From the IMG/VR virus record IMGVR_UViG_3300020411_000263, positions 1 through 42,832 of that record: a stretch of 42,832 nucleotides of DNA. One strand, 5' to 3'. The stretch is from a virus. The notes beneath the pieces are model-generated. The model was not told the DNA's origin. It ran no database searches and saw nothing but the letters and a program-made list of their open reading frames with translations. The position numbers and the translations under genes were made by a program. This document shows, in pieces, positions 1 to 33,295 of the stretch (position 1 is the stretch's first letter; each line of letters begins with the position of its first letter).

Positions 1-3000
1 CCATTAAATCTTTATATTTAGAATGGAATCTAGCTAAACCTGGGGTATGTTGCCAAGTTAAATCTAAAGCATTAAAGCCTGTACGAACAAATGGGAAGAA
101 AAATCTAAAACCTGTGATGTTTCCCATCGACTCTAAAGCTTTTAAATTACCACCTAATGGTTTTGTTAGTGCAGTTTCATCACCCGCAAGAGCTGCGGCT
201 CTATCTGAAACAACCCATTGATCATATGCGTCCTTTGTAAATATCTCTTTTCTAAAGTTTTCTTCTCTTCGTCTAGCTATTTCTACTACATCGTCTAAAT
301 CTACACCGTCATCTATAGCTTTTCTAGCTGCTCTCATACGCATTTCAAATCTACCGATCAAGGTTCTAGCCAATGCGTCACCTGCACCCATCGCATTTTG
401 AGAATAACGTACCCAAGGTGAGTTATTAAAGTCTAACATTGTGTTAGCTACACCATACCACATCTTTTCTGAGTCAGTACCATACATTTCTACAAATCTA
501 CCTATTTGTTTAAATTCTTGTGTACTGGTTTCAAAGTTATATTTAGCAGCATAAGACTGAGCCTTACGGTTTATACCTAGATCCCAGTTATGTTTAAACA
601 TTTTAAGACCTTCTGCGAACATATCACCCATAGCAGCAAATTGTGATGCAGCAATAACCATTTCTTTCTTATTACCATTAAGTGCAGCCCCAACATATGC
701 TTGGAAAGGACGTAATAATGCAATAAAATTAGTACCAAATATAGCTTTGATAGGAGTACGTAAACTACTTAGTACAGAATTATAAAACAAACCTTTAGCT
801 TGTATTCTAATACCAGATCTATAGTTTTGACCTTTAAATCTACCTCCCTTAGTTTGTACTTTCACCCATTGTAAAGCATCATCAAAAGTAGTAACACTAC
901 CTCCAGATAAGGCTTGTATCTCCATAAGGGTTTCTCTCTCTATATTAGTACCTTCTTTAGCTATTCTATCTAATTCTTTATAAAATTCATCATATGCTTT
1001 ATCAATTTCAGCTAATTCACCCTGTATAACCCTTCTAGCATCTTCTGGTAGAAGCTTATTTTTAAACCTTTCCAGAGTTGCTCCTGCCATATAGCTCATT
1101 TTCTTGTACTCTTTTAAGGCTAGTACAAGCGATTTGTTGGCGTGTTCCATTTGACGGACTCCAGCTGCTCCTGGGGGTAGTTCTAACGCCCCTGTAGCGT
1201 ACATAGATGCCCTTTTAGACAATGTTTGAATTAACATCTCTAAAGCAACCTTTTGCTCAGGCGTACCTGTTACAATTTTGTTGCCATTAGTCATGTATTC
1301 AATATAATCTTTCTTTCTTTTAGGGTCAAAATAGGTTAAAAATCGCTCATTTGTACCCGCTGCAATGTCCTCATTTACTCTACTAAATAGTTCTTCTGTT
1401 TTACCTAGAATAGCAGCTTGAACTTTCCTATAGTCAAACGAGTTCATTTTGTTGTCAAAAATTTCGTTCGCAATTTTCTCGGAAAATTCTTTAATGAACT
1501 TATATAATGACTCACTACCATCAGACATCCTTTCTATTTGTCTATGTATAAGTACTTGAGTACTTGTAGTACCGTCATTTAATAGTTCACCTATAAGCTG
1601 TTTAGTTTTACCACCTAAATCCTTCTTATCATCTGGTATAAAGGTTTTATCTTGCTCACCAAACATATTAGGGTTACGATCTGGAGTAGGTTTCTTAGTA
1701 GGATCACTGTTTCTTGCTGAAGTACCAGCCTCCTCAAACCAAGGATCACCAATTTTTTCTCCATTTCTTAGTGCTTGTGCTTCTAACTCTTCTTTAGTGA
1801 AACGTTTGAACCCTCCTTCACCTTCTTGAGCTCTTGCATCAAAGTCTTCCATATCACTGAGAATAAAATCATCATCATCAATGAAAGGTTCCCATCCGTT
1901 GTAGCCCTGATTTTCAAATTCTAGTGTATATTTACGCTGCATAGTATCGTAAAGTTGTCTACGATAGTTAGAAAATATACGTCTAGTCTGACTACCACCA
2001 AAACGAGATGCAATATTGGCATATATATCTTTAACAAATATACTGACTTCTTGTGCTATACGTCTAAACGTACCTACAGGTGCCATCATGTCATAGTCAA
2101 GCATGAATAGTTCAAGCTCGTCTGACATAGTTTCAGCAAAAAACTCGTCTAAATTTTTGTAACGATAATTTGAAGGTGTGTATCTACCTTTTTTAAATAG
2201 TTCTGCATCTTTACCACCTTCAGCTAAGAACTTAGCTTTACGGTTTAAAAATTCTTTATTTAATCTTTCTACATCAGTTTTAGGTAAATATCTAGATAGT
2301 GTATGCCATAATTCATGGATCATAACCCCAGTAAACTCACCTTTCTCCATTATATCTTTTTGGATTTCAATGAGTCTAGTACCAAAATTAAACCTACCTT
2401 GGACTCCTAACTTGTTAGTTATAGATAAAGACACATCGCCAAAGAATCTATCACCCAAAAGTTGTATAACTTCTTCTATAGCTTCAGCTTCTTCTGGATC
2501 TAAACCCTCTGTAGTAAATTTTCTTTGTAATCTTTTTATTAGATATTCAGCTCCTCTACTTCCTTCTAAACCTCTACCAGCTTCTATATTTGTTTGCCAA
2601 GGTTTCCTAGGAGGACGTGCACTAAAACCTCTACTGTCAAAGATTGGTAAATCTGTACTAACGTCAGATCCCGCAGAGTTCTTTAAACGGTATGGATCTA
2701 AGTCTATCTGTGATTCTGGAGTCCAATACACTCTAACTTTATGACTTCTATCACCATGTTTAGCTGTATATTCAATACCGCCATAACCTAATTCTTGTAA
2801 GTCTGCATGTACCTCATCAAGTACCTGTGTGACTTCCTCACGGGGGTATAGCTGTTGCTCTTTAACTTTTTCTATAAAGTCTGAATAACTAATACTACCT
2901 TCTGTAGGCCACGCTGATTCAAAATTATCTGCTATCGACTGAGGAAATAGTACATCTCCATCAGCTGATATCTGATCATTAAGAAGACCCAAACGTTTAA

Positions 3001-4528
3001 ATGATTCAACTTCTGGATCTAAACTATCAAATGGATATTGTTTTTCTGCATCTAAAAATTTAACAGGTTCTTTTTCTATAACTCTGTACATAACTTTTTT
3101 CTTACCACTAGCATCCATACCAATAGCAAGTCCTTCTCCTACTGATCTATCACCAGCTGCAACTGTCAAATCATCTACAGTATAAAAACCATTACCAAAT
3201 AAGTTTTCATCATTCCATCTACGAGCATCTTTTGTATAATAAGGGAAATCACCTGGAAGTCCTTTACCACTACCATGAAAGAAAAGCTCATTACCAGTAA
3301 CATCTTCTAAATTCCCTTTAGAAAAATGCACATATTGTTTACCTAGAGGTTCGTCTAGATTTCCAACGATATGATCTTCCCAAGGATCTGGAGGTATTCC
3401 ACGATTATTAAGAGCATCATCTTTTTGTAAGTCTTTACGCTGTTTATATTCCTCACGTATTTCAGTTGTAAGCCTCTTTTCTAAAGCCTTATTACCATCT
3501 ATATTTGCTTCTTCTATGCTCTTACCAGCCTTACGGGATCTGATAGCAGTCCATCTACCTTTAGCAAATGCCATTAAATAATGAGCTATAATATTTGCAC
3601 CAGCTCCAGCAAAAATAGTTTTAATTCTAGCTGTCCAAGGATTATCTTCATCTGGGTCGACAGACAAAAACTCGGATAATGGTAGCCAAGGAGCATACTC
3701 ATTTAATAAGTTAGCTAAGTTACCATAGTCAGATGATGAAGAAATAAGATCAGCTGTAGCTCCTTCTACTGCAATATTACCTAATTGACCAGCATGTTTT
3801 GGTAAAAATTTAATAAATCTTGCACCTTTTTTAGTTGTTGCAAGTTTGCTTATAATAGGGGTTTTACTCTTTACTACTCCAGAAAGTAATTTGTTACCCA
3901 GATTTCTTTGGATAACTGCTGTCTTTCGTATAGCAGTTTGAGCAGCAACATTAGCCTTAGCAGCTTTACCTATTCCTCCTGTAGTGTACAATAAGAATCC
4001 AAATTCTGATAGACCTCTTAATAAGTCACCATATCCAGATAAAGTATTAGGTTGGAATCTATCTGGTACATTTAAAATTCCAGGTTGTGCTCCACCTATA
4101 CCTAGCTTTTGTGCTTCTCTATACTCCTTAGCATTAAATGGGTTGTTACCATATTCTTGGTTCAGACCCATTATTCTATTAGCAGTAGAGGTAATTGTAT
4201 CTCCCGTAAGATCTAAAAAACTACCTACACTTTCAACAGCATCTGTTGCACCACCGTACAAAGCTTTAGCTGTTTCACTAACAAACTGTACAGGATTATT
4301 TGGTAAGAACCCCTGTGGGTTTTCAGCCTTAGCTTGTTCGTCTGCCTGTTGTTGTTGTAATAATTCTAGTTTTTGGTCGTTTTGGTACGCTTCTAATAGT
4401 CCCAAATCGTCTCTACCCATTGCGTCAATTTCGCTGGGTGTCATATCTCGAAATCTGAGGGGGTCGTTAACCGTAGCTTCCCCCTCTTCCTCAGAATTTT
4501 CAAGACGCATTAATTCATCTTCATTCAT
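1..4528 (-). CDS. Internal virion (ejection) protein, gp16-like, with ART-like and zinc-protease-like domains; 3' end outside window
   Basis: One open frame of 1509 codons runs from ATG 4528 off the left edge; I read it codon by codon over most of its length (about 1-4080) and found no stop there. Its place after the gp14- and gp15-like genes makes it the T7 gp16 counterpart, an inner-core protein ejected into the cell (T7 gp16 is about 1318 residues). I see no lytic transglycosylase signature. Residues about 400-600 look like an H-Y-E type ADP-ribosyltransferase: FFHGSG (His418), GNGFYTVDD (Tyr449), then ELGYGGIEY (Glu586) followed by a basic strand. Around 738-742 is HELWH, with NLDEFFAE (Glu795/Glu799) downstream, the spacing of a gluzincin metallopeptidase. 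The rest is rich in charged helices. The gene starts 3 nt after the gp15-like stop. The gp16 role is firm from order and size; both enzyme domains are motif-level calls. Confidence 0.85.
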   Translation of the reverse strand, partial: MNEDELMRLENSEEEGEATVNDPLRFRDMTPSEIDAMGRDDLGLLEAYQNDQKLELLQQQQADEQAKAENPQGFLPNNPVQFVSETAKALYGGATDAVESVGSFLDLTGDTITSTANRIMGLNQEYGNNPFNAKEYREAQKLGIGGAQPGILNVPDRFQPNTLSGYGDLLRGLSEFGFLLYTTGGIGKAAKANVAAQTAIRKTAVIQRNLGNKLLSGVVKSKTPIISKLATTKKGARFIKFLPKHAGQLGNIAVEGATADLISSSSDYGNLANLLNEYAPWLPLSEFLSVDPDEDNPWTARIKTIFAGAGANIIAHYLMAFAKGRWTAIRSRKAGKSIEEANIDGNKALEKRLTTEIREEYKQRKDLQKDDALNNRGIPPDPWEDHIVGNLDEPLGKQYVHFSKGNLEDVTGNELFFHGSGKGLPGDFPYYTKDARRWNDENLFGNGFYTVDDLTVAAGDRSVGEGLAIGMDASGKKKVMYRVIEKEPVKFLDAEKQYPFDSLDPEVESFKRLGLLNDQISADGDVLFPQSIADNFESAWPTEGSISYSDFIEKVKEQQLYPREEVTQVLDEVHADLQELGYGGIEYTAKHGDRSHKVRVYWTPESQIDLDPYRLKNSAGSDVSTDLPIFDSRGFSARPPRKPWQTNIEAGRGLEGSRGAEYLIKRLQRKFTTEGLDPEEAEAIEEVIQLLGDRFFGDVSLSITNKLGVQGRFNFGTRLIEIQKDIMEKGEFTGVMIHELWHTLSRYLPKTDVERLNKEFLNRKAKFLAEGGKDAELFKKGRYTPSNYRYKNLDEFFAETMSDELELFMLDYDMMAPVGTFRRIAQEVSIFVKDIYANIASRFGGSQTRRIFSNYRRQLYDTMQRKYTLEFENQGYNGWEPFIDDDDFILSDMEDFDARAQEGEGGFKRFTKEELEAQALRNGEKIGDPWFEEAGTSARNSDPTKKPTPDRNPNMFGEQDKTFIPDDKKDLGGKTKQLIGELLNDGTTSTQVLIHRQIERMSDGSESLYKFIKEFSEKIANEIFDNKMNSFDYRKVQAAILGKTEELFSRVNEDIAAGTNERFLTYFDPKRKKDYIEYMTNGNKIVTGTPEQKVALEMLIQTLSKRASMYATGALELPPGAAGVRQMEHANKSLVLALKEYKKMSYMAGATLERFKNKLLPEDARRVIQGELAEIDKAYDEFYKELDRIAKEGTNIERETLMEIQALSGGSVTTFDDALQWVKVQTKGGRFKGQNYRSGIRIQAKGLFYNSVLSSLRTPIKAIFGTNFIALLRPFQAYVGAALNGNKKEMVIAASQFAAMGDMFAEGLKMFKHNWDLGINRKAQSYAAKYNFETSTQEFKQIGRFVEMYGTDSEKMWYGVANTMLDFNNSPWVRYSQNAMGAGDALARTLIGRFEMRMRAARKAIDDGVDLDDVVEIARRREENFRKEIFTKDAYDQWVVSDRAAALAGDETALTKPLGGNLKALESMGNITGFRFFFPFVRTGFNALDLTWQHTPGLARFHSKYKDLM

Positions 4529-4531
4529 GAT

Positions 4532-7500
4532 TTATTTCCGTCCTTCCAGCTTACATGATCCCGTAGGATCCCAACTCCAATGCCATGCTTCGGTTTCTCC
4601 TTTTTTCCATCCGCTGTTCATGTCTGTTGTTGGTGTACCTGTATGTGGACATAAATTGTAATTTGTGTAATTTTCTAATAACCAAGCATAAGCTGCCTCG
4701 CCCTCTTTACCTTGAGCCCAGCTTAAATCTAATGACACACCTGCATTATGATTAGACTTACCAACTTCGGCTACATCTACTTCACTACCTGATTTTTTCT
4801 TTTTCTCTAGTAATTTTCTTTGGTCACTTAAAGTTCTATAACCATCATTTATACCAAAGCTATGACCGTTTGCTTTAGCATCTTTAAAGAACCTAAACCA
4901 ATCTTTAGATGCGTCTTTTCTAATGCGGAATGTATATTGTTTATTACGTATTAATCCTGTATTATCCCAAGCATACCCTCTAATTGGTACTAAATCTTCC
5001 TCTCTTATCTTACCTGTAAGGTCACCACCTACGTCATAGCGGTCTGAAGCAACACTTAACTTATAACTATTTAGATTTAAGTACTTCTGTGCTATCTTAA
5101 CTTTAGCAAACTCTGGTTGCTGTACTAATATACTCATGAGAGCATCATCATGGTTAGTAAATTTACCTCTTCTAAACAGTTCAGATGCCTGTCTCTTAAC
5201 TTCTTTAAACTTTTCTACACCTAAGACATCGCTTAGTGCAATATTGAGTAGACCTACTGGGACATTACCCCTACCTTCTAGTTGTTGGTAAACAATTCTT
5301 AAGTTAGTTAACTTATTTTCTAAATTTTTATGTTCAGTATATGCAGAAGTTTCACCTAAAAACTGTGGTTTACGTGTAACTATACGTTTTATTAGTCCAC
5401 TTATTGGCCCAATACCAGCAATTTCTCCTTCATAATGCTCTGGATTTACTATCCATTGTGAAGGTACTTCTTCTTTTTTAAGCTTTAATAACATATCTTG
5501 TACACCTAAGAAATCTGAAGGTATCTCTTGATTATATATTGAACCTTCTGGGTGTATATAACTTTCGTTGATGCTATAATCTACTTTAAATGAGTTACCA
5601 TTACCAAGATTAAATTTAGTAAGGAACGGTGTAAGAGCACTGGTATCTCCACTTCTATAAGCTGATAAAGCACTTTGGGTAAAATTAACGTAACCATCTT
5701 TATTCCAGTTGTTTACATCTCCTGATGCCATAAATGCAGCAACCATACGTACTCTAATATTATCGTTATTGGTTAGACCTTCTGTTGCCTTAACTGCCTT
5801 TTTAATTTTATAGTGAAGTAAAGTTTCTAATAGTTTAGGATCACCAACTATTTGTTCCCACTCTTTAGATGGTAAGCCCATTTCAGCTAAATACAAATTA
5901 GCTTCCTCTGGTCTAATAGGTAGCTGACCATCTTGAGTTACCAAACTGGATAAAATATTATAAGGAGAAATATAACCTGCTTCTACTATTACTCTATTAT
6001 AACCTTCTGTCTCTCCACTAACTAATGTTTTTCTTTGTTGAAGATCAAGTTCTAACCAGTCATCTATCCTTTTTTGTGTGTCCTTATCCCACTCCTTTAC
6101 CAGACTAGGATCTAGAAGTTTAGCTTGTTGGTTGTAAATTACCTCTGGCGGAGTGGTACCTTCCGAAAGTTGGGACATTCTATAAAAGATGGAGTGAACT
6201 CTCCCATCATTTTTAAGTTCAAAAAAAGCTCGATCATTGTCGTTAAAGAATAGTTTTGATTCAAATAAATTTGGTGATTCAAAGTTGGCATACTCGGTAG
6301 AAACCTCTTTAAGTTTGTTAGTAATTGTACCTTCAATAGTTTTAGGTGATATTAAACCTTTAGATTTGGTAGAATATATTGTGTCATCAAATCCATCACC
6401 ATCTATACTTAAATTTAAAGATGCGTCCTTTACATAACCTTCGGGAAGCTCCTTATTGACAGCGTTTTGACCTAAAAATTGATCTCGTATGTATTTTTTT
6501 GCTTGTCTTAAGCCCTCAGTTAAAGGTACATCATTTGCTTGAGAAAACTGTAAAGCAAAGGAAAATATTTGTGGCCCAATGTAATCTGTGAAAGCATCCA
6601 TTTGGGTATCTTGCTGTTCAGAACTTAACCTATCTTTGGTTGTTTTTTTAAATATACCTTCAACTTCTTCAACAAGATCTGTTGTCAGTTCTGTATGTAA
6701 GGCGTAAGCCCCAGGTGCATCTTTATAAGGATCAGTAACTATACCGTTATCAATATATTCATTAAGTACTTCTGGGTGTATTTTTTGTAAATCAATAGCA
6801 GTAATAGGTATTACAGAAATTCTTTCTTTTCCATCTGGTAAAACTGTTTTAACATTATATTTCTTCATTAAGTATTGCATACGTTGTATGCTAGTTTGTT
6901 TATCAAAAGGTTCTGTACCTTTATAATCTATTAGTTCACCATTATCGTGACTGTTAAGAATAGTTTTAGCCCAAGGTAACCCGTAATGAGTAACGTAGAG
7001 TTGGTTTAATTCTTTAGCTTTACCAATTTCATCACCAATATATTGTCTATCAATTCTTTGTAACGTTTCTTTTAAATTAAGTTTTTTACCTTCTAATTCC
7101 TGACTAGCTCTTGTGTACTGTTCTCGTAACATCCTACCGTGTATTTCATCACGGTCATAAGATGCAGACATTAACTCACTAAAAGAACTTAATTCAAATT
7201 CACCATCTTCCTTCTTACCAGATACACCTTTAATATAAAATCTTTTTTCATCTAAAAAATTCAAAATATCTAACATATCGTCTTGGTTAGATAACTCAGT
7301 ATTTTCTAAGAAAGACCCCTTACCGACTATCATATCTAAGAGTTTTTTCTTAGCATTAGCATTATAACTTCCTTCTACACCAATCATTTTCATGGTAGAT
7401 GGTAGTATATTTAAAGCATGTTGTATAGTCTCAGTTGCTGTTGCTTTACCCTGCTCTGTTTCAAGGTTCTTAAAATCAGTTTTAAACTTAACCTCCAGAT

Positions 7501-8377
7501 CTTCTATCCTTTTGTAACCTAATTCAACCTGTTCCTTTTGAAACTCTTTTTGTTGCCATAAATTTGTTCTTTCAATAACAGGTTTAATAAGATGAGTATT
7601 AACAAGATTCTGTTTAAAACCAGCTCCTTCATTTACTAGATAATAGCTCTGGACTTTAGCAACAATAGCTTTACGAACATCTAGTTTTGTTGATGGGATT
7701 TGATAATATTCACCGACTTTATACTCCTCTCCATCAACCGTAACTGTTTCGTTTTGAATATCATAATCACTACTACCAGTAAGAACACTCTCTCTAAACG
7801 CATCCCAACCAGTGGCAGCTTCCATTAGTAAACCTTTACGGTATCCTCTAGCAAAGTTACCGTTATGTTTCTTAAGGTTTAGTAATCTATATTCAGCTGT
7901 TAGATCTCTTTTTATTTCTTTCTCAAACTTCTTCTTTAAAGCTTCCGTAGTAAACTCAGTTCTTTCAACTAACTCGTTAGATTTTTTTTCTATTTCTAAC
8001 TCTTGTTGTTCATCAAGACGCATTTTATCTAATGCTTCCGAATCTCCTTGAGCTGCTAATATACCTTGATTGATACCATCTTGCATTTGAGCATCAAATA
8101 TAGGTTTAGCAATATTAGTAGCTACAGTATCAAGAAAATTATTAAATTCTTTACTAAACTTCCTGAGTTTATCTAATTCGTAAGTATCAGCTATTTCATC
8201 TAGCTTATCTCCACGCATCATTTCTTGGAGCTGTTGATTAGATGCGTTTTGAAAATTAGATACGTCTTGTCTATTGACTTTCTCTAAATTTGCAGCTAAA
8301 TCTATGTATTGTTTGGATTCATCTCTAGCTTGCCTTCCTCTGAACCCACTAGCGTTGGTGCTTCTTTGATATGCCAT
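4532..8377 (-). CDS. Internal core protein, gp15-like, with C-terminal M15 peptidase domain
   Basis: A 1281-residue protein, much longer than T7 gp15 (about 747). Most of it is charged, helical sequence without a recognisable fold, as expected for an ejected core protein. The last ~135 residues are different and match peptidase family M15 (VanY / phage endolysin type): a GYRT..SDQ segment, SNHNAGVSLDLSW giving zinc ligands His1210 and Asp1217, and ETEAWHWSW giving Glu1263 and His1266. This family cuts peptidoglycan cross-bridges or stem peptides, so the domain could open the wall during DNA entry. I chose ATG 8377, 10 nt after the gp14-like stop; a GTG at 8416 inside the preceding gene is in frame and would add 13 residues. 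The start is uncertain; the core-protein call is solid from order. Confidence 0.85.
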   Translation of the reverse strand: MAYQRSTNASGFRGRQARDESKQYIDLAANLEKVNRQDVSNFQNASNQQLQEMMRGDKLDEIADTYELDKLRKFSKEFNNFLDTVATNIAKPIFDAQMQDGINQGILAAQGDSEALDKMRLDEQQELEIEKKSNELVERTEFTTEALKKKFEKEIKRDLTAEYRLLNLKKHNGNFARGYRKGLLMEAATGWDAFRESVLTGSSDYDIQNETVTVDGEEYKVGEYYQIPSTKLDVRKAIVAKVQSYYLVNEGAGFKQNLVNTHLIKPVIERTNLWQQKEFQKEQVELGYKRIEDLEVKFKTDFKNLETEQGKATATETIQHALNILPSTMKMIGVEGSYNANAKKKLLDMIVGKGSFLENTELSNQDDMLDILNFLDEKRFYIKGVSGKKEDGEFELSSFSELMSASYDRDEIHGRMLREQYTRASQELEGKKLNLKETLQRIDRQYIGDEIGKAKELNQLYVTHYGLPWAKTILNSHDNGELIDYKGTEPFDKQTSIQRMQYLMKKYNVKTVLPDGKERISVIPITAIDLQKIHPEVLNEYIDNGIVTDPYKDAPGAYALHTELTTDLVEEVEGIFKKTTKDRLSSEQQDTQMDAFTDYIGPQIFSFALQFSQANDVPLTEGLRQAKKYIRDQFLGQNAVNKELPEGYVKDASLNLSIDGDGFDDTIYSTKSKGLISPKTIEGTITNKLKEVSTEYANFESPNLFESKLFFNDNDRAFFELKNDGRVHSIFYRMSQLSEGTTPPEVIYNQQAKLLDPSLVKEWDKDTQKRIDDWLELDLQQRKTLVSGETEGYNRVIVEAGYISPYNILSSLVTQDGQLPIRPEEANLYLAEMGLPSKEWEQIVGDPKLLETLLHYKIKKAVKATEGLTNNDNIRVRMVAAFMASGDVNNWNKDGYVNFTQSALSAYRSGDTSALTPFLTKFNLGNGNSFKVDYSINESYIHPEGSIYNQEIPSDFLGVQDMLLKLKKEEVPSQWIVNPEHYEGEIAGIGPISGLIKRIVTRKPQFLGETSAYTEHKNLENKLTNLRIVYQQLEGRGNVPVGLLNIALSDVLGVEKFKEVKRQASELFRRGKFTNHDDALMSILVQQPEFAKVKIAQKYLNLNSYKLSVASDRYDVGGDLTGKIREEDLVPIRGYAWDNTGLIRNKQYTFRIRKDASKDWFRFFKDAKANGHSFGINDGYRTLSDQRKLLEKKKKSGSEVDVAEVGKSNHNAGVSLDLSWAQGKEGEAAYAWLLENYTNYNLCPHTGTPTTDMNSGWKKGETEAWHWSWDPTGSCKLEGRK

Positions 8378-8387
8378 AGTTAATAAT

Positions 8388-9113
8388 TTATAAGTTTTGC
8401 CAGAAATCGTCACCACCTAAAGACGTACCAGTACTTATAGCAGTACTAATTCCACCAAGTAATGGCCCAAGTATAGAAGGTTTGCTTGGAGCTTCTTTCT
8501 TAATAGGTCTAATAGTTTTAAATGATGCAGATGGTGCGACAGACGCAGAGGTCGTAATAGAGTTAAGTGCTGCTGTATCAGCTGAATACTGAGACATATC
8601 TATACCGTATTTCTGTATTCCGTAGTTACGGGTTGCGTCAAAGACAGTAGCATCGAGTTGTGCTTGTTCAAAACCTAGATCACGTTCTGCCTGTTGTAAT
8701 TCCATCAACATAGATTGTCCTGAAGCCATACCACTAGCCATCACTGTACCTTGTGCTTGTATAGCTTTTGCTAAGTTAGTCTGACTGGCAAACATTTGTT
8801 CGTTCAGTTTTTCACGTAATTCTTGGTCAGCTGCAACAGTTGCTCTGTTGGCTTCAGCTTGGTTAAGTTCTTTTTGTTTGTAATATGCTGCCCTAGAAGC
8901 TGCATCGGCTTTAAGTTGAGCCTCAAATACATCTCCTTTACGTTGATCTTCATAAGCAGATATTGTAATGTCGTTTATATATTTTTGCCGAGCCATAGCG
9001 TTGCTACGGTTTACGGCATTAACTTGATTTTGGTGTTGTCTATTTTGTTCTGCAATACCTGTCACCGCCTGAGCAGCACCAAGTCCTATGCTGAAGGCTA
9101 ATACTGTACACAT
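8388..9113 (-). CDS. Internal virion protein, gp14-like
   Basis: A 241-residue protein between the gp13-like and gp15-like genes, where T7 has gp14 (196 residues), the core component that forms the outer-membrane pore at ejection. The N-terminus has a short Gly/Ala-rich hydrophobic stretch (about residues 5-20). Residues 25-150 are a long Ala/Gln/Glu-rich helix with coiled-coil character, and the tail is Ser/Pro/Gly-rich. The start at 9113 overlaps the upstream gene by 16 nt, typical of the tight coupling in this block. The assignment rests on position, size and composition rather than on a catalytic motif. Confidence 0.75.
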   Translation of the reverse strand: MCTVLAFSIGLGAAQAVTGIAEQNRQHQNQVNAVNRSNAMARQKYINDITISAYEDQRKGDVFEAQLKADAASRAAYYKQKELNQAEANRATVAADQELREKLNEQMFASQTNLAKAIQAQGTVMASGMASGQSMLMELQQAERDLGFEQAQLDATVFDATRNYGIQKYGIDMSQYSADTAALNSITTSASVAPSASFKTIRPIKKEAPSKPSILGPLLGGISTAISTGTSLGGDDFWQNL

Positions 9114-9550
9114 GGTTTAATAAATTGTATTAAGGGGACTCCATTGTAGACATGATAATTAATAAAGGTAAAACCTAAGAATTTTAATAGTTTTATGTGT
9201 GCTTCATTTCGCATATCTGCTTGGTTACATAAATAAGGATTCAGTAAACTATCAACCCAGCGTTTTGCATCTCTTGCAAATGAGTGTGGATACTCTGAGC
9301 TGGCATCAGTACACAACATCCATATTACATTGTGCGGGGTTACTCCCGCCACTCCAGCAGCCTTGCCGTTGGGAACCGTAAAATACACGGAAAATGCTGA
9401 ATTATAATAAGATTCTATAATAGCAGCCTCAGCACATAAACCAGAGGTTTCTTCTGCCTCACGTCTATCTTCATAGCGTAGGTTAAGCCCCACACTCAGA
9501 GCTAACTCTGGAGTGCAAGGCTCGATATGACAAGCGTTACCTTCGTACAT
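9098..9550 (-). CDS. T7 gp13-like protein, GNAT-like fold (DUF2833-type)
   Basis: A 150-residue protein directly after tail tubular protein B, the position of T7 gp13, a small protein needed for virion assembly. Its body ([23 protein letters not shown], then [11 protein letters not shown] and a hydrophobic [11 protein letters not shown] strand) has the strand-helix pattern of the acetyltransferase-like DUF2833 family, in which gp13 homologues are usually placed. No substrate can be inferred. It overlaps the gene before it by 14 nt and the gene after it by 16 nt, so the three are probably translated in a coupled way. Confidence 0.75.
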
Positions 9551-12500
9551 GTCGTTTGTTTGAGTAATTACCGTCCCAGCTAGCTGAGAGTAAGGCGATG
9601 GAAAATGGATCGGGTATTTGTATTTGCATAGTATATCTATCGTTCTTCTTTTGTACAGGAACTCTAACTGACTTAGATAATTCAGAAGGAGGTTGGTTAT
9701 AGTTGCTAGCGTTAGTTAACATACCAGACTCATACTGTACATATGAGCTCATATTAGCATATATTGGGTTTTGATGAAACTCCATTGGCCCAGATACACC
9801 TAATTCAAAGTTAAGTCCAGCAATACGTAGCTCTCCATCAAGGTCATAGTTAGTTTGACCCTTGTTATAATAGTATGTAGGTAGCTCTACAATGGTTGTA
9901 TATCGGTAACCAAGTACTATTTTAGCGTTACTAGCTATATTAATACCATTAAAAGTAGCGGTACCCGTACCTACAGCATCGGCTTTCCGTACTACGCCAG
10001 CAATAGAATTACCAGCACTGTCGTTTCCTGAAATACCTACCATATAAAACTCACTAGCTCCCGTAGGAGTGTAAGGTATTGCTACTACAGTTTTCTCAGG
10101 TGCAGTTGTAGTCTGTGCAGTACCAGTAATAGTTGTAGGTTCTACTAAATTATCAAGACATGGTTCAAACCATCTAGCTGTTTTGAGGGGCGAGCCTATA
10201 TTAGCTGGTACACCTCCTACTACATATGCTCTATTAGAGCTAGCATCAGTAACATATTCATATCTGCTAAGAATAAAGTTACTACCTTGAGCTGTAACCG
10301 TGAAGAAACTACCACCAGTATATAACATATGCTGCATAGTGCCTGTTAATGTCCAAGTGTACCACGCAGATTGTTCACGTTTTTGTCCAGTATTATAGTA
10401 TTTATAATGGTATACTTCCTGTTCACCTTTTTGACCATACGTTACAATACCTATAGGTACTGAATTACAAGATTTAGTTATAGTTTTTGGTAAAAATTCT
10501 GGAACAACCCTAGTTTGTTCTAGTACTGCGGGGGGTGTATCATCATCTAAAATTGTAGCTTCAAACGCTCTAGCATGTGATGATACATTAGATGTAAATA
10601 GTACGGATGTACCCATATCAACAGGTTGTATGCTGCTGTCACATTCAAAACTAGATACTTTTTTAAGCCTAGCAGTCTTAGAACTAAATATATCTGATTC
10701 TGTAAATAATAAAAACTGTCCATTATCAGAGAACATTAACAATCCTTTCTGAATAGGTAATGTGTGATTGATAAATGCAGGTTTTATATCCGATACAGTT
10801 ATATCTATAGGGTTATCATCACTAGCAGATATAGCAGATACGACAAAGAAATTAAAATAATTTCCAGGCTGACTTAAAATTATATTCTCACCAGAAATTA
10901 AACCTAATCTATTTCTATGGAAAAATATTTCCTGTATATTATTACCTTCAAATGTAGGGAAAGGGTTAGAAGTGTTATCACCTACAGTTCTATTATCCCA
11001 ATAGTTCTCGTTACCTCTTGCGGTAGCTGTAGCTTCGTCTAACTTAATAAATGAGAATGTACCGTTACGATTGTTAACAAGAGCGTGAGGCATTGTTGCG
11101 GGATCTAGCCCTAATACCATTGCATCAATAGCAGCAGTTCCAGCAAAGTTATGGGGTCTTACACATTCTTCCCAACTACCAGCTCCAGACGTACCATTAT
11201 CAGCTTCAAACTTTACATAATAATCATCTGTTTCTAGATCAGCAGTATTAGATATTTGTGCTACATAACCGTGTTTACACATAGCTGGTAGTTTAGAAAT
11301 ATCCTGTGCTTTCTGACCTATTACACTCATGTTCTCATTAACAGCACCACCAAGAAAGTTAACACTAGAGGCTGCAGAACCATACATAAATAAACCACTA
11401 CCTATAACCTCCGCTGTGACATTTGCTAGACTACTGTTGACAGAAGCCTTTAAACCATTAAGAATAGTAGCCATAGATAGCGTACCATTGTCTGGATTTC
11501 TGGGACTTTTATAATAACCTATACCAGAAATTCCTTTATATGTTTCTACTGGTTCAACAGCTTCAACTGAAAGACGATACTTAATTCCTTCTAGGGTAAC
11601 GTCCACATAAACATTCTCAGCTGTAGTTTTGTTTGTTGTTTTAATTAAACCGCTATCTCTTAACGTAACTGTAGCTGTATAGCGGACATCATAGTTTTGT
11701 GTATATCCTAAAAAGTCACCACCGTCAAAATTTTCTACATTATTTGCAATGAAACTTTGACCGTTTACTTGTAAACTTCCTTCAATATTTTCTGTAATAT
11801 TTGTACCACCTACTTGAGCACCTGTAGTAGTAACAGAAGATCCTCCAGAGAATGACCAAGTTAGAGTACCAGACTTAGCTTGGTTCTCATTACCACTAAT
11901 CCATGTTGGGCCAGAACCTACAACTGCTGTAGCTGCAGCACCACCACTTCCAGAGAAAGTAACGGTAGGAGCAGATGTATAACCGCTTCCAGCATCAGTC
12001 ACTTCAACTCTTGTAACTTTACCATCTTCAACTATTGCTTTAGCTGTGGCTCCAGTACCGCCTCCACCTGATAATGTAACAGTTGGTGGACTGGATGTAC
12101 TATAACCAGAACCTTGGTTAGTGACAGTAAACTCACTAATAACTTCTATAACATCAACTTTTACAGAAGTAGCCCTGTAGTAAGTGTTGGGTGTGGGAGC
12201 TGTACCACTATATAATATATATTCAGTATTGTAAGCAACAGTATCCAACCTAGCATATGAGTAATCTCCACTGTGAATAGGTGAAAAAGTATTACCTGTA
12301 GTACCTATAGTTTTTTGTTTGTTAACTATTATTGTATAATCTTGTATAGTCTGGATAGCATACTCTTCTGTAGCCCCCGAAAGGTAAGCGAATAGAGCGT
12401 CTCCATTACTATTTGTCAGACTTAATTCATTACCATTAGACAAGTCCCATATACGTATGGGCTTTTGTCCAGACCCAGTATTAGCTGGAGTAATTTGAAA

Positions 12501-12725
12501 TAAATATTTTTCATCTCCATCTCTTATGATTTCATACCAATAGCCTGTGCTATTAGCATTTGTAAGTGTCTTTACAAACTCTCCAGATGGACGCTTCTTT
12601 AATCCAAATGTAACATCTGGGACAGCATTATCACATACCCTTAACTGTCCTGGAAATTTTATTTTATCTGGCTGTTGAGATACACCCCCAAGAAAGTTTG
12701 GGATACTTTGATTGACTGCTGCCAT
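9537..12725 (-). CDS. Tail tubular protein B (nozzle), gp12-like
   Basis: A 1062-residue protein whose N-terminus ([19 protein letters not shown], then a cluster LKKRPSGEF) is the hallmark of T7 gp12, the tail nozzle. T7 gp12 has 794 residues; part of the extra length is a Gly/Thr-rich beta insertion at about residues 195-270 with two tandem copies of a GSGY..(S)APTVT.SG repeat, a module common in marine phage structural proteins. The C-terminus returns to nozzle-like sequence ending in a [12 protein letters not shown] strand. It lies just after tail tubular protein A, sharing one base, and before the gp13-like gene. Confidence 0.95.
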
Positions 12726-22762: not shown

Positions 22763-23479
22763 TTAAGGATTCCAAAGGATTGGTTGTTCGGTGTTAAAAT
22801 CGTAGTCTTTATGTTGTAAGATCTTGGCTAATCGAGCATTGAGTAAAGCGTCATCGTCTGATAACCCTCTATCTCTAAAAGTTTGACAAACAGCTTCCCA
22901 TTTAAAGTCTTTCTTTTCTATTATTGCAGCAGCTTTCTTGACTCCAATTCCAGGGCAACCAGAGTAACCATCTGTTGGGTCACCTGCCATTGTCTGGATT
23001 AGATGCCAATCATCTCCTTGCTCTTTAGTGATCTCCTCTACATCATTCGTGAGATCCCATAGGACACCTGGAATTTGACGTAGATCTTTGTCTGGACTTA
23101 CGATTATGTTGTCAGTACTGGGGTATCTCGTAGCGTCAATCCCTAGGGAGTCATCAGCTTCGAGCCCTTCACGTAAGACAAACTTGTAATTTTCTTTACA
23201 ATGGTTGACAAGGCGTTTGTAACCTAGGGGTTTCCTACGGTTTCGATGACCCTTGTAATCGGCATAAATTTTCTTCCTAAAATTTTGAGGACTAGAAAAA
23301 TAAAGGATTACATCGTCTTCCATCATAGCGGTCTGAACTTTTTGAAGCTCATTATCAAACACTTTAAGTACTTGACTAAAGTTAGATTGTGCAACGATAA
23401 CATCGTTACCAAAATCTATACCTTCTTCGCATACTTGTGCTGATTTATAAGCAATAAAGTCGCAATCAATTAATAACAT
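22763..23479 (-). CDS. 5'-3' exonuclease, T7 gp6-like (FEN family)
   Basis: A 238-residue flap-endonuclease-family exonuclease (T7 gp6: 300). Acidic metal-site clusters appear in order: LLIDCDF at the N-terminus, GLEADDSLG, IIVSPDKDLRQI, and AGDPTDGYSGCPGIGVKKAAAII, which is the helix-hairpin-helix DNA-binding motif with its preceding Asp. In T7 this enzyme degrades host DNA to nucleotides and removes RNA primers; the nucleotides can then feed the reductase encoded next. It overlaps the polymerase stop (TGATG). Confidence 0.95.
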   Translation of the reverse strand: MLLIDCDFIAYKSAQVCEEGIDFGNDVIVAQSNFSQVLKVFDNELQKVQTAMMEDDVILYFSSPQNFRKKIYADYKGHRNRRKPLGYKRLVNHCKENYKFVLREGLEADDSLGIDATRYPSTDNIIVSPDKDLRQIPGVLWDLTNDVEEITKEQGDDWHLIQTMAGDPTDGYSGCPGIGVKKAAAIIEKKDFKWEAVCQTFRDRGLSDDDALLNARLAKILQHKDYDFNTEQPILWNP

Positions 23480-24747
23480 CAGTGTACTTCAGCCCAATTT
23501 TCGCCAATTTGTGCATCGGCTTCAATGGGTAGTCTAAGGTTGTAATACTCACCTGCTTGTAATGCAGAAATCTTGCACATTTCAGCGATATCATTTGCAT
23601 ATTGAGGCTCCGACCCTAATACTTGTTCGTCATGTACAAAAGCATAACGTTCATACGGCATGTTACTCATGCGTATATTATGGTCAGTTATTAGTAGCCA
23701 ACGCTTTGCGATGACTGCTGCCGATCCTTGCAAAAGACAATTTAACGCTTTATGTTCTTTGTCAACATGGATTTGGCGTTTGTCGATAGCACGTATGCTA
23801 CCTCTTTCAGCAACTCTACGAGTATCTTCGACAAGACTTTCCAGCCCTGGGATAGCATCCATATAAGCTCTCCTAATCTCTGCCCCTTTCTTCTTCGCTT
23901 GTTCGAGGGGGAGCATATTGTCAAAAGATAATCCAAGTTTCTGGTTACCCCCTCCGTACAAGAAACAATAAGTAATTGTCTTGACTTGTCTGCGAGAGAT
24001 TCCAATTTTGTCTGCATTAACTTGGTGAATATCCTGTTCTAGTAAGATCTTTGCATATCGTCCCCCATCGTAACGGGCTAGATAATGAGCAAATAATCTT
24101 AACTCTATCCCAGCTAGATCAGAATCAATAAGTTTCCAGCTTGGGTTAGTAATAAATAATTCACGGCAATCCTTATCCGAACTTACTTGAGCAAGATTCG
24201 GGTGTGAATGTGCCATTCGATGCGTAACCGCACCGATAAAGCAAGAGTGGTGAACCCTGCCATCCTTGACTAGTTTCAACCACGCATTAGTGCCTTGCGA
24301 CAACATTCCGAGCTTCTTTTGTGTAATCAGAATCTCAAGGAATACTAATGCCTCTTCTGTACCTATCTCTTTAAGTACGGTTTCATCAATGACCGCCTTA
24401 CCAGTAGGTGTAAACTTGTTTGGTTTCCAATTTTGAAACGTTCGGAACCACCAAGCTATATGTTCTCTGCTGCTAGGATTAAACTCTTTCAATCGTTGCA
24501 TCTCTGCACCAGCAAAGTAACCTTGTTTTTTATTGTCTCGCCTTGGTGTAAATAAATTTCCAGGTACACACCAACATAACTTCATCGACTTATCCTTTAG
24601 GTATTCGAGTCTAGTTAATAGTGTATTCTCTAGTTGTTGTGCTTTCTTTACATCAAATGGCCAGCCTGTCACTTTTTGTTGTGACATCATCAGTGCGATC
24701 TCGTGTTCGAGAACTACTGCTTGAGGAATTTTTGGAAATGACTCCAT
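23479..24747 (-). CDS. DNA polymerase, family A polymerase domain (separate gene)
   Basis: A 422-residue protein holding only the polymerase part of a T7 gp5-type enzyme. Motif A is DLAGIELR (Asp210, Glu215), motif B RRQVKTITYCFLYG (Lys256, Tyr260, matching T7 Lys522 and Tyr526), and motif C VHDE (His372, Asp373, Glu374). Tyr260 predicts little discrimination against dideoxynucleotides. The exonuclease half is encoded by the preceding gene in another frame. ATG 24747 lies 34 nt inside that gene. Whether the two chains associate or a fused form is made by frameshifting is open. Confidence 0.95.
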   Translation of the reverse strand: MESFPKIPQAVVLEHEIALMMSQQKVTGWPFDVKKAQQLENTLLTRLEYLKDKSMKLCWCVPGNLFTPRRDNKKQGYFAGAEMQRLKEFNPSSREHIAWWFRTFQNWKPNKFTPTGKAVIDETVLKEIGTEEALVFLEILITQKKLGMLSQGTNAWLKLVKDGRVHHSCFIGAVTHRMAHSHPNLAQVSSDKDCRELFITNPSWKLIDSDLAGIELRLFAHYLARYDGGRYAKILLEQDIHQVNADKIGISRRQVKTITYCFLYGGGNQKLGLSFDNMLPLEQAKKKGAEIRRAYMDAIPGLESLVEDTRRVAERGSIRAIDKRQIHVDKEHKALNCLLQGSAAVIAKRWLLITDHNIRMSNMPYERYAFVHDEQVLGSEPQYANDIAEMCKISALQAGEYYNLRLPIEADAQIGENWAEVH

Positions 24748-25265
24748 AGTTTTACTAAAATGGCAACGTCTTGTTTACAATAATCTTGCATTTCCTGTGA
24801 CCACTCTTTCCAATCAGTAGTCTTGCCATATTCTCCTTTGTGACACTTGAACCTATACCCGTAGGCTTCGAGGCTATGTGATCCATACAAACGTGCTGGC
24901 ATCCCAGTCCATTTGCGTCTAAGATCTGTGTCTAATATATTTGGGTGGTAAAATCTACTGAGGATAAGTGTATCCCAGTGTTTTGCTTTCCCTTGAAAAA
25001 AAGGAAAATGTTTTTGGATCTGTGGTATGTCAAACATAATACCATTATGTGAAACGATATTGTCAGCAACCTCAAGATCATTAACTGCGTTAACAACGCT
25101 AGAGTATGGTGATGCTTGATCGTTATACTCAGTCACTAAACCAGTATCTAAGTCTTGTGTAACTACACAATGTATCTGAGTGCAATCAAGTCCATCTGTC
25201 TCTATATCGTATGCTAAGTTAATCGAAGTCCGTTGCGGGGTCGAAGTCTTCGGTCTTAATTTCAT
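24714..25265 (-). CDS. DNA polymerase 3'-5' exonuclease domain (separate gene)
   Basis: A 183-residue protein equal to the proofreading domain of a T7 gp5-type polymerase. The DEDDy exonuclease motifs are intact: YDIETDGL (Asp20, Glu22), NGIMFDIPQI, and YCKQDVA. It ends shortly after motif III with FQKFLKQ, just where the linker to the polymerase domain would begin. The polymerase gene continues in the -1 frame, with an A5 run in the overlap. It overlaps the primase-helicase gene by 47 nt. Confidence 0.92.
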   Translation of the reverse strand: MKLRPKTSTPQRTSINLAYDIETDGLDCTQIHCVVTQDLDTGLVTEYNDQASPYSSVVNAVNDLEVADNIVSHNGIMFDIPQIQKHFPFFQGKAKHWDTLILSRFYHPNILDTDLRRKWTGMPARLYGSHSLEAYGYRFKCHKGEYGKTTDWKEWSQEMQDYCKQDVAILVKLWSHFQKFLKQ

Positions 25266-32398: not shown

Positions 32399-33295
32399 TT
32401 AGCTATGCTGGAGGAGAGAGTCAAGCTGTTTTATACGATTCAGGGGAATGGTTGCTGCTTGAGGACATATTGTATTGCCTAGGCATTTAAGTCTGTCCAC
32501 CCTACGGGAAAGCCCATCATCTCCTCTACGAAGCATGGGTTGAGATGCGTAGGTTCGCCATTCGGGACTAAGTCTGATTCTTGTATCACTCCAGTTAAGT
32601 AGCCCTGCTTCGCCCACCTTAAGCTGCTTGGTGACCCCTTGGTTCCTATCCCCTTCCACTCGCTCGCTCTCGGTGTCGGTAATAGCGTTAACTTGTCTTG
32701 TATGTTGAGGCTGTGACTCGTACCATTTGACGATAGTCTCCTCCCCGTATCCGTGATGGTGGCATTTGGATGTGCGATAGTATCTTGGGTCGTTGGCGTA
32801 GGCAATAATCCAGATACGTTTACGGAGGTGTGAGGCTCCCATATCTGCTGCTGATATAATGCTCCACTCAGCATTGTACCCTGCTTTGGCAATTTCATAG
32901 AGGATTTGCTGGAAAGTCTCCCCTTTGGCGTGACTGATTGTATTTGCAACGTTTTCAAAGAGGATGAATTTAGGTCGAGTACGCCTAGCAATCTGCATAA
33001 CCCTATAGAACAAGCTACTGCGTGTGCCTTCTCGAAGTCCAGCTTGTTTGCCCGCTGAGGATAAGTCTTGGCATGGGAATCCAGCGGTGATGAGATCGAA
33101 CTCACCGAATTTGTAAGATGTGTCAAATGTCGTGATGTCATCGTGAATAGGTACATGTGGAAAGTTCTTGCGGAGAACTTGTTGACAGTATGCGTTGTTC
33201 TCAACGAACTGTGTTGTAACAAAACCTCCGAGTAGATGACCAGCATAGGCAAAGCCACCTATCCCAGAGAATAAGTCTAAGACTCTCATGCCCAT
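32399..33295 (-). CDS. DNA (cytosine-5) methyltransferase
   Basis: A 298-residue C5 methyltransferase. Motif I DLFSGIGG, motif IV GFPCQDLS with catalytic Cys75, motif VI FENV, motif VIII RKRIW, and a final LKCLGNTICPQAATIP strand (motif X) are all present. The enzyme methylates cytosine in a specific site, likely to shield phage DNA from host restriction. ATG 33295 has a GAGGAG ribosome-binding site 5 nt upstream; ATG 33289 overlaps the preceding stop. No restriction partner is seen. Uniquely, the target-recognition part also reads as methyltransferase-like sequence in the +1 frame. Confidence 0.95.
   Translation of the reverse strand: MGMRVLDLFSGIGGFAYAGHLLGGFVTTQFVENNAYCQQVLRKNFPHVPIHDDITTFDTSYKFGEFDLITAGFPCQDLSSAGKQAGLREGTRSSLFYRVMQIARRTRPKFILFENVANTISHAKGETFQQILYEIAKAGYNAEWSIISAADMGASHLRKRIWIIAYANDPRYYRTSKCHHHGYGEETIVKWYESQPQHTRQVNAITDTESERVEGDRNQGVTKQLKVGEAGLLNWSDTRIRLSPEWRTYASQPMLRRGDDGLSRRVDRLKCLGNTICPQAATIPLNRIKQLDSLLQHS
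32479..32814 (-). other. Second methyltransferase-like reading frame inside the methyltransferase gene
   Basis: In the +1 frame relative to the main gene, 111 codons to a stop at 32479 encode SGLLPTPTTQD near the start, LTLLPTPRASEWKG in the middle and THLNPCFVEEMMGFPVGW at the end. Repeated LLPTPxAS and the LNPxFVExMMGFPxGW ending are typical of the C-terminal half of a different set of phage C5 methyltransferases. No good start codon belongs to this frame alone, so it would be reached by frameshifting or is a relic of a frame change. Confidence 0.55.

Follow-up and report, generated by a model that had tools for sequence, protein, structure and literature searches.

A T7-type gp16 ejection protein from an uncultured cyanopodovirus with a predicted zincin domain and an ADP-ribosyltransferase-like domain

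The window, by which we mean the whole 42,832-nucleotide stretch analysed here, is IMG/VR virus record IMGVR_UViG_3300020411_000263, 42.8 kb from a T7-like cyanopodovirus. At its edge it encodes a gp16-like internal virion (ejection) protein (2..4528; residues 1-1509; this and all other features located in the window lie on the minus strand). Between two segments shared with other cyanopodovirus gp16 proteins we detected an insert that carries a zinc-protease-type (zincin) domain, an assignment that is solid on the basis of motif conservation and predicted fold, together with a probable ADP-ribosyltransferase (ART)-like domain. Our searches indicate that this pair is absent from the cultured phages searched and widespread in uncultured ocean viruses, and such a polyvalent-type T7 gp16 is both real and unusual. 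On balance we favour the view that this T7-type ejection protein has a slot for variable cargo and is in this sense a polyvalent protein.

The original prediction had described this open reading frame (ORF) as the counterpart of T7 gp16, which is confirmed by PHROG 6651 ("internal virion protein", phrog_6651; residues 47-1509, E = 6e-146) and by the synteny of the late genes. The order nozzle, gp14, gp15, gp16 and fibre, obtained from the window ORFs and Pfam and also found in relatives, places the gene after gp14 and gp15 and ahead of the tail fibre. The query is about 500 residues longer than the profile. Since the ORF is open at the window edge, its C-terminus is missing; 1509 residues are present, and the full-length relatives have 1,863-1,890. 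Elsewhere the window encodes a T7-type RNA polymerase, DNA polymerase A, primase-helicase, portal, capsid, nozzle and terminase, and also psbA (D1) and a ribonucleotide reductase. The window protein shares 36% identity with gp16 of NATL2A-133 (tblastn). Its N-terminal core (residues ~80-385; 3374..4291), delimited by alignment with NATL2A-133, S-TIP28 and P-SSP7, is common to isolates without cargo, and its C-terminal core (residues ~916-1509; 2..1783) is common to all cyanopodovirus gp16 proteins. With Pfam, no lytic transglycosylase was found in the window protein or its full-length relatives, as originally predicted, nor in gp16 of NATL2A-133.

The cores thus align with cyanopodovirus gp16 proteins, whereas residues ~385-916 are unmatched in NATL2A-133, S-TIP28 and P-SSP7, and the cultured isolates are without both domains. 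Neither the zincin nor the ART-like region had a tblastn match in 50,697 phage records, and a search of phage isolates for either domain returned none. A genome scan with the insert domains gave one distant match, on a contig labelled Legionella from a metagenome-assembled genome. The papers that we read on cyanopodoviruses and ejection proteins make no mention of a zincin or ART in a T7-type gp16. With the whole window protein, searches of Pfam, NCBIfam and PDB gave nothing. An assembly artefact or chimera was ruled out, as several independent contigs share the architecture.

The zincin-like metallopeptidase domain (residues ~640-885; 1874..2611) was identified in 72 IMG/VR contigs, all from uncultured viruses, at loci chosen by a match to either of two peptide patterns. 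From these contigs we aligned 39 rows with 28-76% identity to the window. All 39 retain H738, E739, W741 and H742 of the zinc-binding/catalytic motif HELWH (residues 738-742; 2303..2317), as well as E795 and E799, the candidate third zinc ligands, on the DEFFAE helix (residues 794-799; 2132..2149). Loci with HEIWH, HEMWH or HEFWH fall outside the HELW search pattern and yet keep HEXXH, so the conservation of HEXXH does not merely reflect how the loci were selected. Given this invariance, a chance motif was rejected for both HELWH and DEFFAE. The zincin and the gp16 core are encoded in one ORF in 85 of the 102 zincin-bearing loci records, a count that includes repeat fetches of the same contigs; the remaining records are mostly contig fragments or divergent proteins. 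One of the divergent zincin proteins, L071, retains a match to the gp16 PHROG, and L043, L073 and L144 match it too.

The AlphaFold (AF2) model of the domain has a predicted local distance difference test (pLDDT) score of 79.5 overall and of ~95 in the core. It runs from a helix through three strands to the HEXXH helix and a Glu-bearing helix, the same layout as described for polyvalent-protein metallopeptidases (PMC5512222). The best-supported Foldseek matches in PDB are zincins, with minigluzincins at a probability of up to 1.00, and BlaR1, IrrE, Wss1, leukotriene A4 hydrolase and ArdC are ranked lower. Like the window domain, the minigluzincins (selecase, jannalysin and abylysin) combine HEXXH and a downstream Glu with a three-stranded sheet and two active-site helices. 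On the other side of the balance, the template modelling (TM) scores to these targets are only 0.4-0.5 and the Foldseek E-values only ~0.05. The zincin rows also stay below the Pfam cut-off, the best match being the M34-type ATLF profile, at 0.0023 and weakly in 10 of 39 rows. Unlike in these zincins, the two zinc helices are separated by a long variable insert, and a sequence search for a solved relative found none. Taken together, the predicted fold and the invariant HELWH site with Glu795/799 bear out the original prediction of a gluzincin-like site, and the domain is probably a working zinc protease.

The ART-like domain (residues ~398-612; 2693..3337) has 13-16 homologues. Invariant in all 13 aligned rows are His418 (3275..3277) and G419 of the HG motif, G445-x-G447-F448-Y449 of the GxGFY motif (Tyr449; 3182..3184), GYGG at 581-584, and His596 (2741..2743), which falls in the region where the third ART motif has its strand. 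All residues quoted in the original prediction were located where it had placed them. Of the H-Y-E type ART that it proposed, His418 and Tyr449 held up, and the triad did not: relatives have E, Q, T, K or A at the position of the supposed catalytic Glu586 (2771..2773). Conservation in relatives had been set beforehand as the test, and HELWH passed it where Glu586 did not. The prediction was thus correct on the zincin and over-stated on the H-Y-E triad.

Five of 16 ART-like members match the Pfam family DUF3990 (best 8e-4), including the compact relatives L142, L143 and L146 at 8e-4 to 2e-3. PMC7955679 places DUF3990 in the ART clan, and this family is also matched by the prototype ART-PolyVal, that of Roseovarius Plymouth podovirus 1. 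A profile of the H...Y segment searched against the whole of PDB, with E-values up to 10, retrieved two sequences only, both of them PARP16 (E = 0.54, a weak match) with His and Tyr in register; PARP16 is tabulated as an H-Y-Y enzyme (PMC7955679). The window domain shares the HG...GxG(F/Y)Y..DD motif in register with the H-Y-x ARTs (PARP16, DUF3990 and ART-PolyVal); the resemblance to known H-Y ARTs is statistically weak, and the third residue is that of neither H-Y-E nor H-Y-D enzymes. Because DUF3990 is found in relatives, PARP16 is the sole sequence match in PDB and a true ART-PolyVal occupies the slot of sister proteins, an ART-type fold is likely for residues ~398-612. ART matches from a Helicobacter prophage and plasmid served only to build and seek comparisons, and an ART-PolyVal search of 299 genomes found nothing and was uninformative. 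An ART-like domain was also seen in L139 (2631-10445, a phage protein of 2605 amino acids) and L145, with a different motif, HEAVH, ~250 residues downstream.

The slot upstream of the zincin is variable. In L043 and L045 an ART-PolyVal domain (PF18760, 6e-10 in L043, above the curated cut-off) precedes the same kind of zincin in the same slot, and L115-L119, which were found via the ART-PolyVal domain, show the same arrangement; these sister proteins substantiate the link to polyvalent entry proteins made in the original prediction. The gp16-like proteins of L047, L049 and L050 contain tandem helix-turn-helix repeats in the slot, the L022 protein (1-570) shows a weak match to S-adenosylmethionine methyltransferase immediately ahead of its zincin, and the slot of L048 holds a stretch that resembles ParB/sulfiredoxin (by eye only). 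Seven contigs encode the ART-like domain without a zincin, and many have a zincin without recognised cargo.

Cargo-free isolates branch first in the gp16-core tree, followed by ART-only lineages and then by a clade with ART and zincin that holds the window (support 100); zincin-only proteins occupy another part of the tree. This branching suggests that the window lineage gained the ART-like domain first and the zincin second, and it shows the two modules to be gained and to occur independently of each other. The window group forms one clade in the zincin tree (support 99), and in the ART-bearing group psbA was found on 5 of 12 contigs, compared with 0 of 17 of the others (all fragments). The nesting in the gp16-core tree, the psbA distribution and the single zincin clade together suggest that the cyanophage lineage acquired the zincin once. 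In the C-terminal core, the ratio of nonsynonymous to synonymous substitution rates (dN/dS) is 0.04-0.15, compared with 0.09-0.33 in the ART-like domain and 0.15-0.37 in the zincin; at 0.09-0.37, both insert domains are under purifying selection.

The window protein agrees with gp16 of T7 and of the cyanopodoviruses NATL2A-133, P-SSP7 and S-TIP28 in core sequence, gene order, size class and late-gene position. It differs from the isolate proteins in having the ART-like and zincin insert, and from T7 gp16 in lacking the lytic transglycosylase domain. It is encoded among virion genes and has at least two predicted enzymatic domains that are unrelated to each other. In this it resembles the polyvalent proteins known from phages and conjugative elements (PMC5512222), virion proteins encoded near late genes that likewise combine enzymatic domains of unrelated kinds. 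The N4-like virion RNA polymerase (vRNAP) of Roseovarius Plymouth podovirus 1 has the same order, ART (PF18760 at 1023-1096) and then zincin (M90/SprT-like matches at ~1252-1387). The carriers differ, however, being a T7-type gp16 here and an N4 vRNAP or MuF protein in the polyvalent examples, and the Asp of GxDG, invariant in the ART-PolyVal rows, is Gly throughout the window family (GYGG), which sets its ART-like domain apart from ART-PolyVal/Tox-ART-HYD2. The parallel with T4 Alt that had been drawn applies to the idea that the head delivers an ADP-ribosyltransferase. As the ART of Alt is of the R-S-E type (PMC5512222) and the window motif is H-Y-x, Alt is an analogue only.

The neighbouring gp15 (ORF 4532-8416) ends in a VanY D-Ala-D-Ala carboxypeptidase domain (4568..4927; PF02557, E = 3.7e-11) with intact SxHxxGxxxD and WHW motifs, and homologues of this tail are present in L001, L004, L014, L105 and L106. 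The gp15 VanY domain probably opens the cell wall. In T7, gp16 exits the head and helps to build a path for DNA across the envelope (PMC8954989). By homology, the window gp16 would exit together with the DNA and pass through the envelope while VanY opens the wall, so that the slot cargo would arrive in the periplasm or cytoplasm ahead of phage gene expression. There the zincin would cut either gp16 itself, leading to release or rearrangement, or host proteins, and the ART-like domain, which could be inactive, would probably bind NAD or ADP-ribosylate a target as an H-Y-x mono-transferase. In its full form, this reading holds that gp16 serves uncultured ocean T7-like podoviruses as a vehicle for exchangeable cargo held in one slot, and that cyanophages inject an H-Y-x mono-ART and a zinc protease that modify or cut host proteins before any phage gene is transcribed. 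We put this full form forward tentatively and consider it rather doubtful as a whole. Packaging, ejection, delivery, catalysis and targets are all inferred. The same is true of the action on host targets within minutes, on which the original prediction had gone too far.

The ART-like part of this reading has several results to contend with. The domain does not have the third catalytic residue that known ART classes share out between Glu and Asp, and direct profile comparison with ART-PolyVal (hhalign) was not significant with either thin or deeper alignments. Fold search, which retrieved zincins for the protease domain, gave no match in PDB, and no ART, for the ART-like model, itself weak (pLDDT 58.7). 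If the HG...GFY motif of residues 398-612 were a look-alike in a phage fold unrelated to ARTs, the profile and fold results would be as observed. We think this quite unlikely in view of the DUF3990 matches within the ART clan, the exclusive and in-register match to PARP16, the predicted succession of strands and helices, and the Foldseek matches of the model in a viral library, which are to large phage proteins with a probability of up to 1.00. Conserved His and Tyr without an acidic third residue would suit an H-Y-x mono-ADP-ribosyltransferase or a non-catalytic ART-like module. That the domain is catalytically dead, a binding or structural module next to a zincin that is active or not, is a real possibility if a somewhat doubtful one: the variable residue 586 and the Gly in place of the GxDG Asp speak for it, and the invariant His418 and Tyr449, the dN/dS of 0.09-0.33 and the invariant His596 near the expected strand of the third motif speak against it, as does the existence of active mono-ARTs with H-Y-I, H-Y-L or H-Y-Y (table in PMC7955679). 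A catalytically active ART-like domain is quite possible, if short of probable.

The zincin might instead be a self-processing protease with no host target, cleaving gp16 either inside the head or once it has been ejected and so freeing the N-terminal cargo or reshaping the ejection channel. Iyer et al. 2017 (PMC5512222) assigned this role to the zincin domains of phage P1 DdrB and N4 vRNAP, and in most loci the zincin lies between the variable N-terminal modules and the C-terminal core. Podoviruses that have psbA and podoviruses that do not both keep the zincin fused to gp16; its substrate should therefore travel with gp16 or be very conserved, and a co-travelling substrate would explain the spread. 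However, the ART-like domain occurs without a zincin in seven contigs, so release of this cargo should be independent of the zincin, and many zincin proteins have no recognised cargo to free. Zincin dN/dS values of 0.31-0.37 against 0.06-0.14 for the core in two pairs would fit a host-facing domain, but two other pairs do not. Self-processing as the sole role is a substantial possibility, falling short of probable; self-processing of gp16 and action on host targets are equally live. It is unlikely that the site of action of both domains is the envelope and not the cytoplasm, with targets such as wall or membrane proteins while the tunnel forms. T7 gp15 and gp16 do form a periplasmic tunnel (PMC8954989), and the wall hydrolase of T7 gp16 is a precedent for envelope enzymes in this protein; on the other hand, gp15 of the window already has a VanY wall enzyme with intact motifs, and an ART requires NAD+, a cytoplasmic substrate.

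We know of no T7-like phage that injects an effector enzyme comparable to T4 Alt. If the wild relatives of the isolates load enzymes into gp16, the take-over of Prochlorococcus and Synechococcus, or the evasion of their defences, may start before transcription. The natural set of variants (none, ART only, zincin only, ART and zincin) makes the roles of the two domains separable by experiment.

Elsewhere in this T7-like cyanophage genome we found a C5 cytosine DNA methylase gene (PF00145, E = 2e-50; 32399-33295, minus strand). The DNA polymerase A match lies in a 422-residue ORF (23479-24747, minus strand) that is overlapped by a preceding ORF of 183 residues (24714-25265, minus strand), and the polymerase is possibly split into these two genes. 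The nozzle protein (9537-12725, minus strand) has an extra N-terminal segment (residues ~190-330) that matches baseplate, head-closure and virion structural PHROGs and not the nozzle family.

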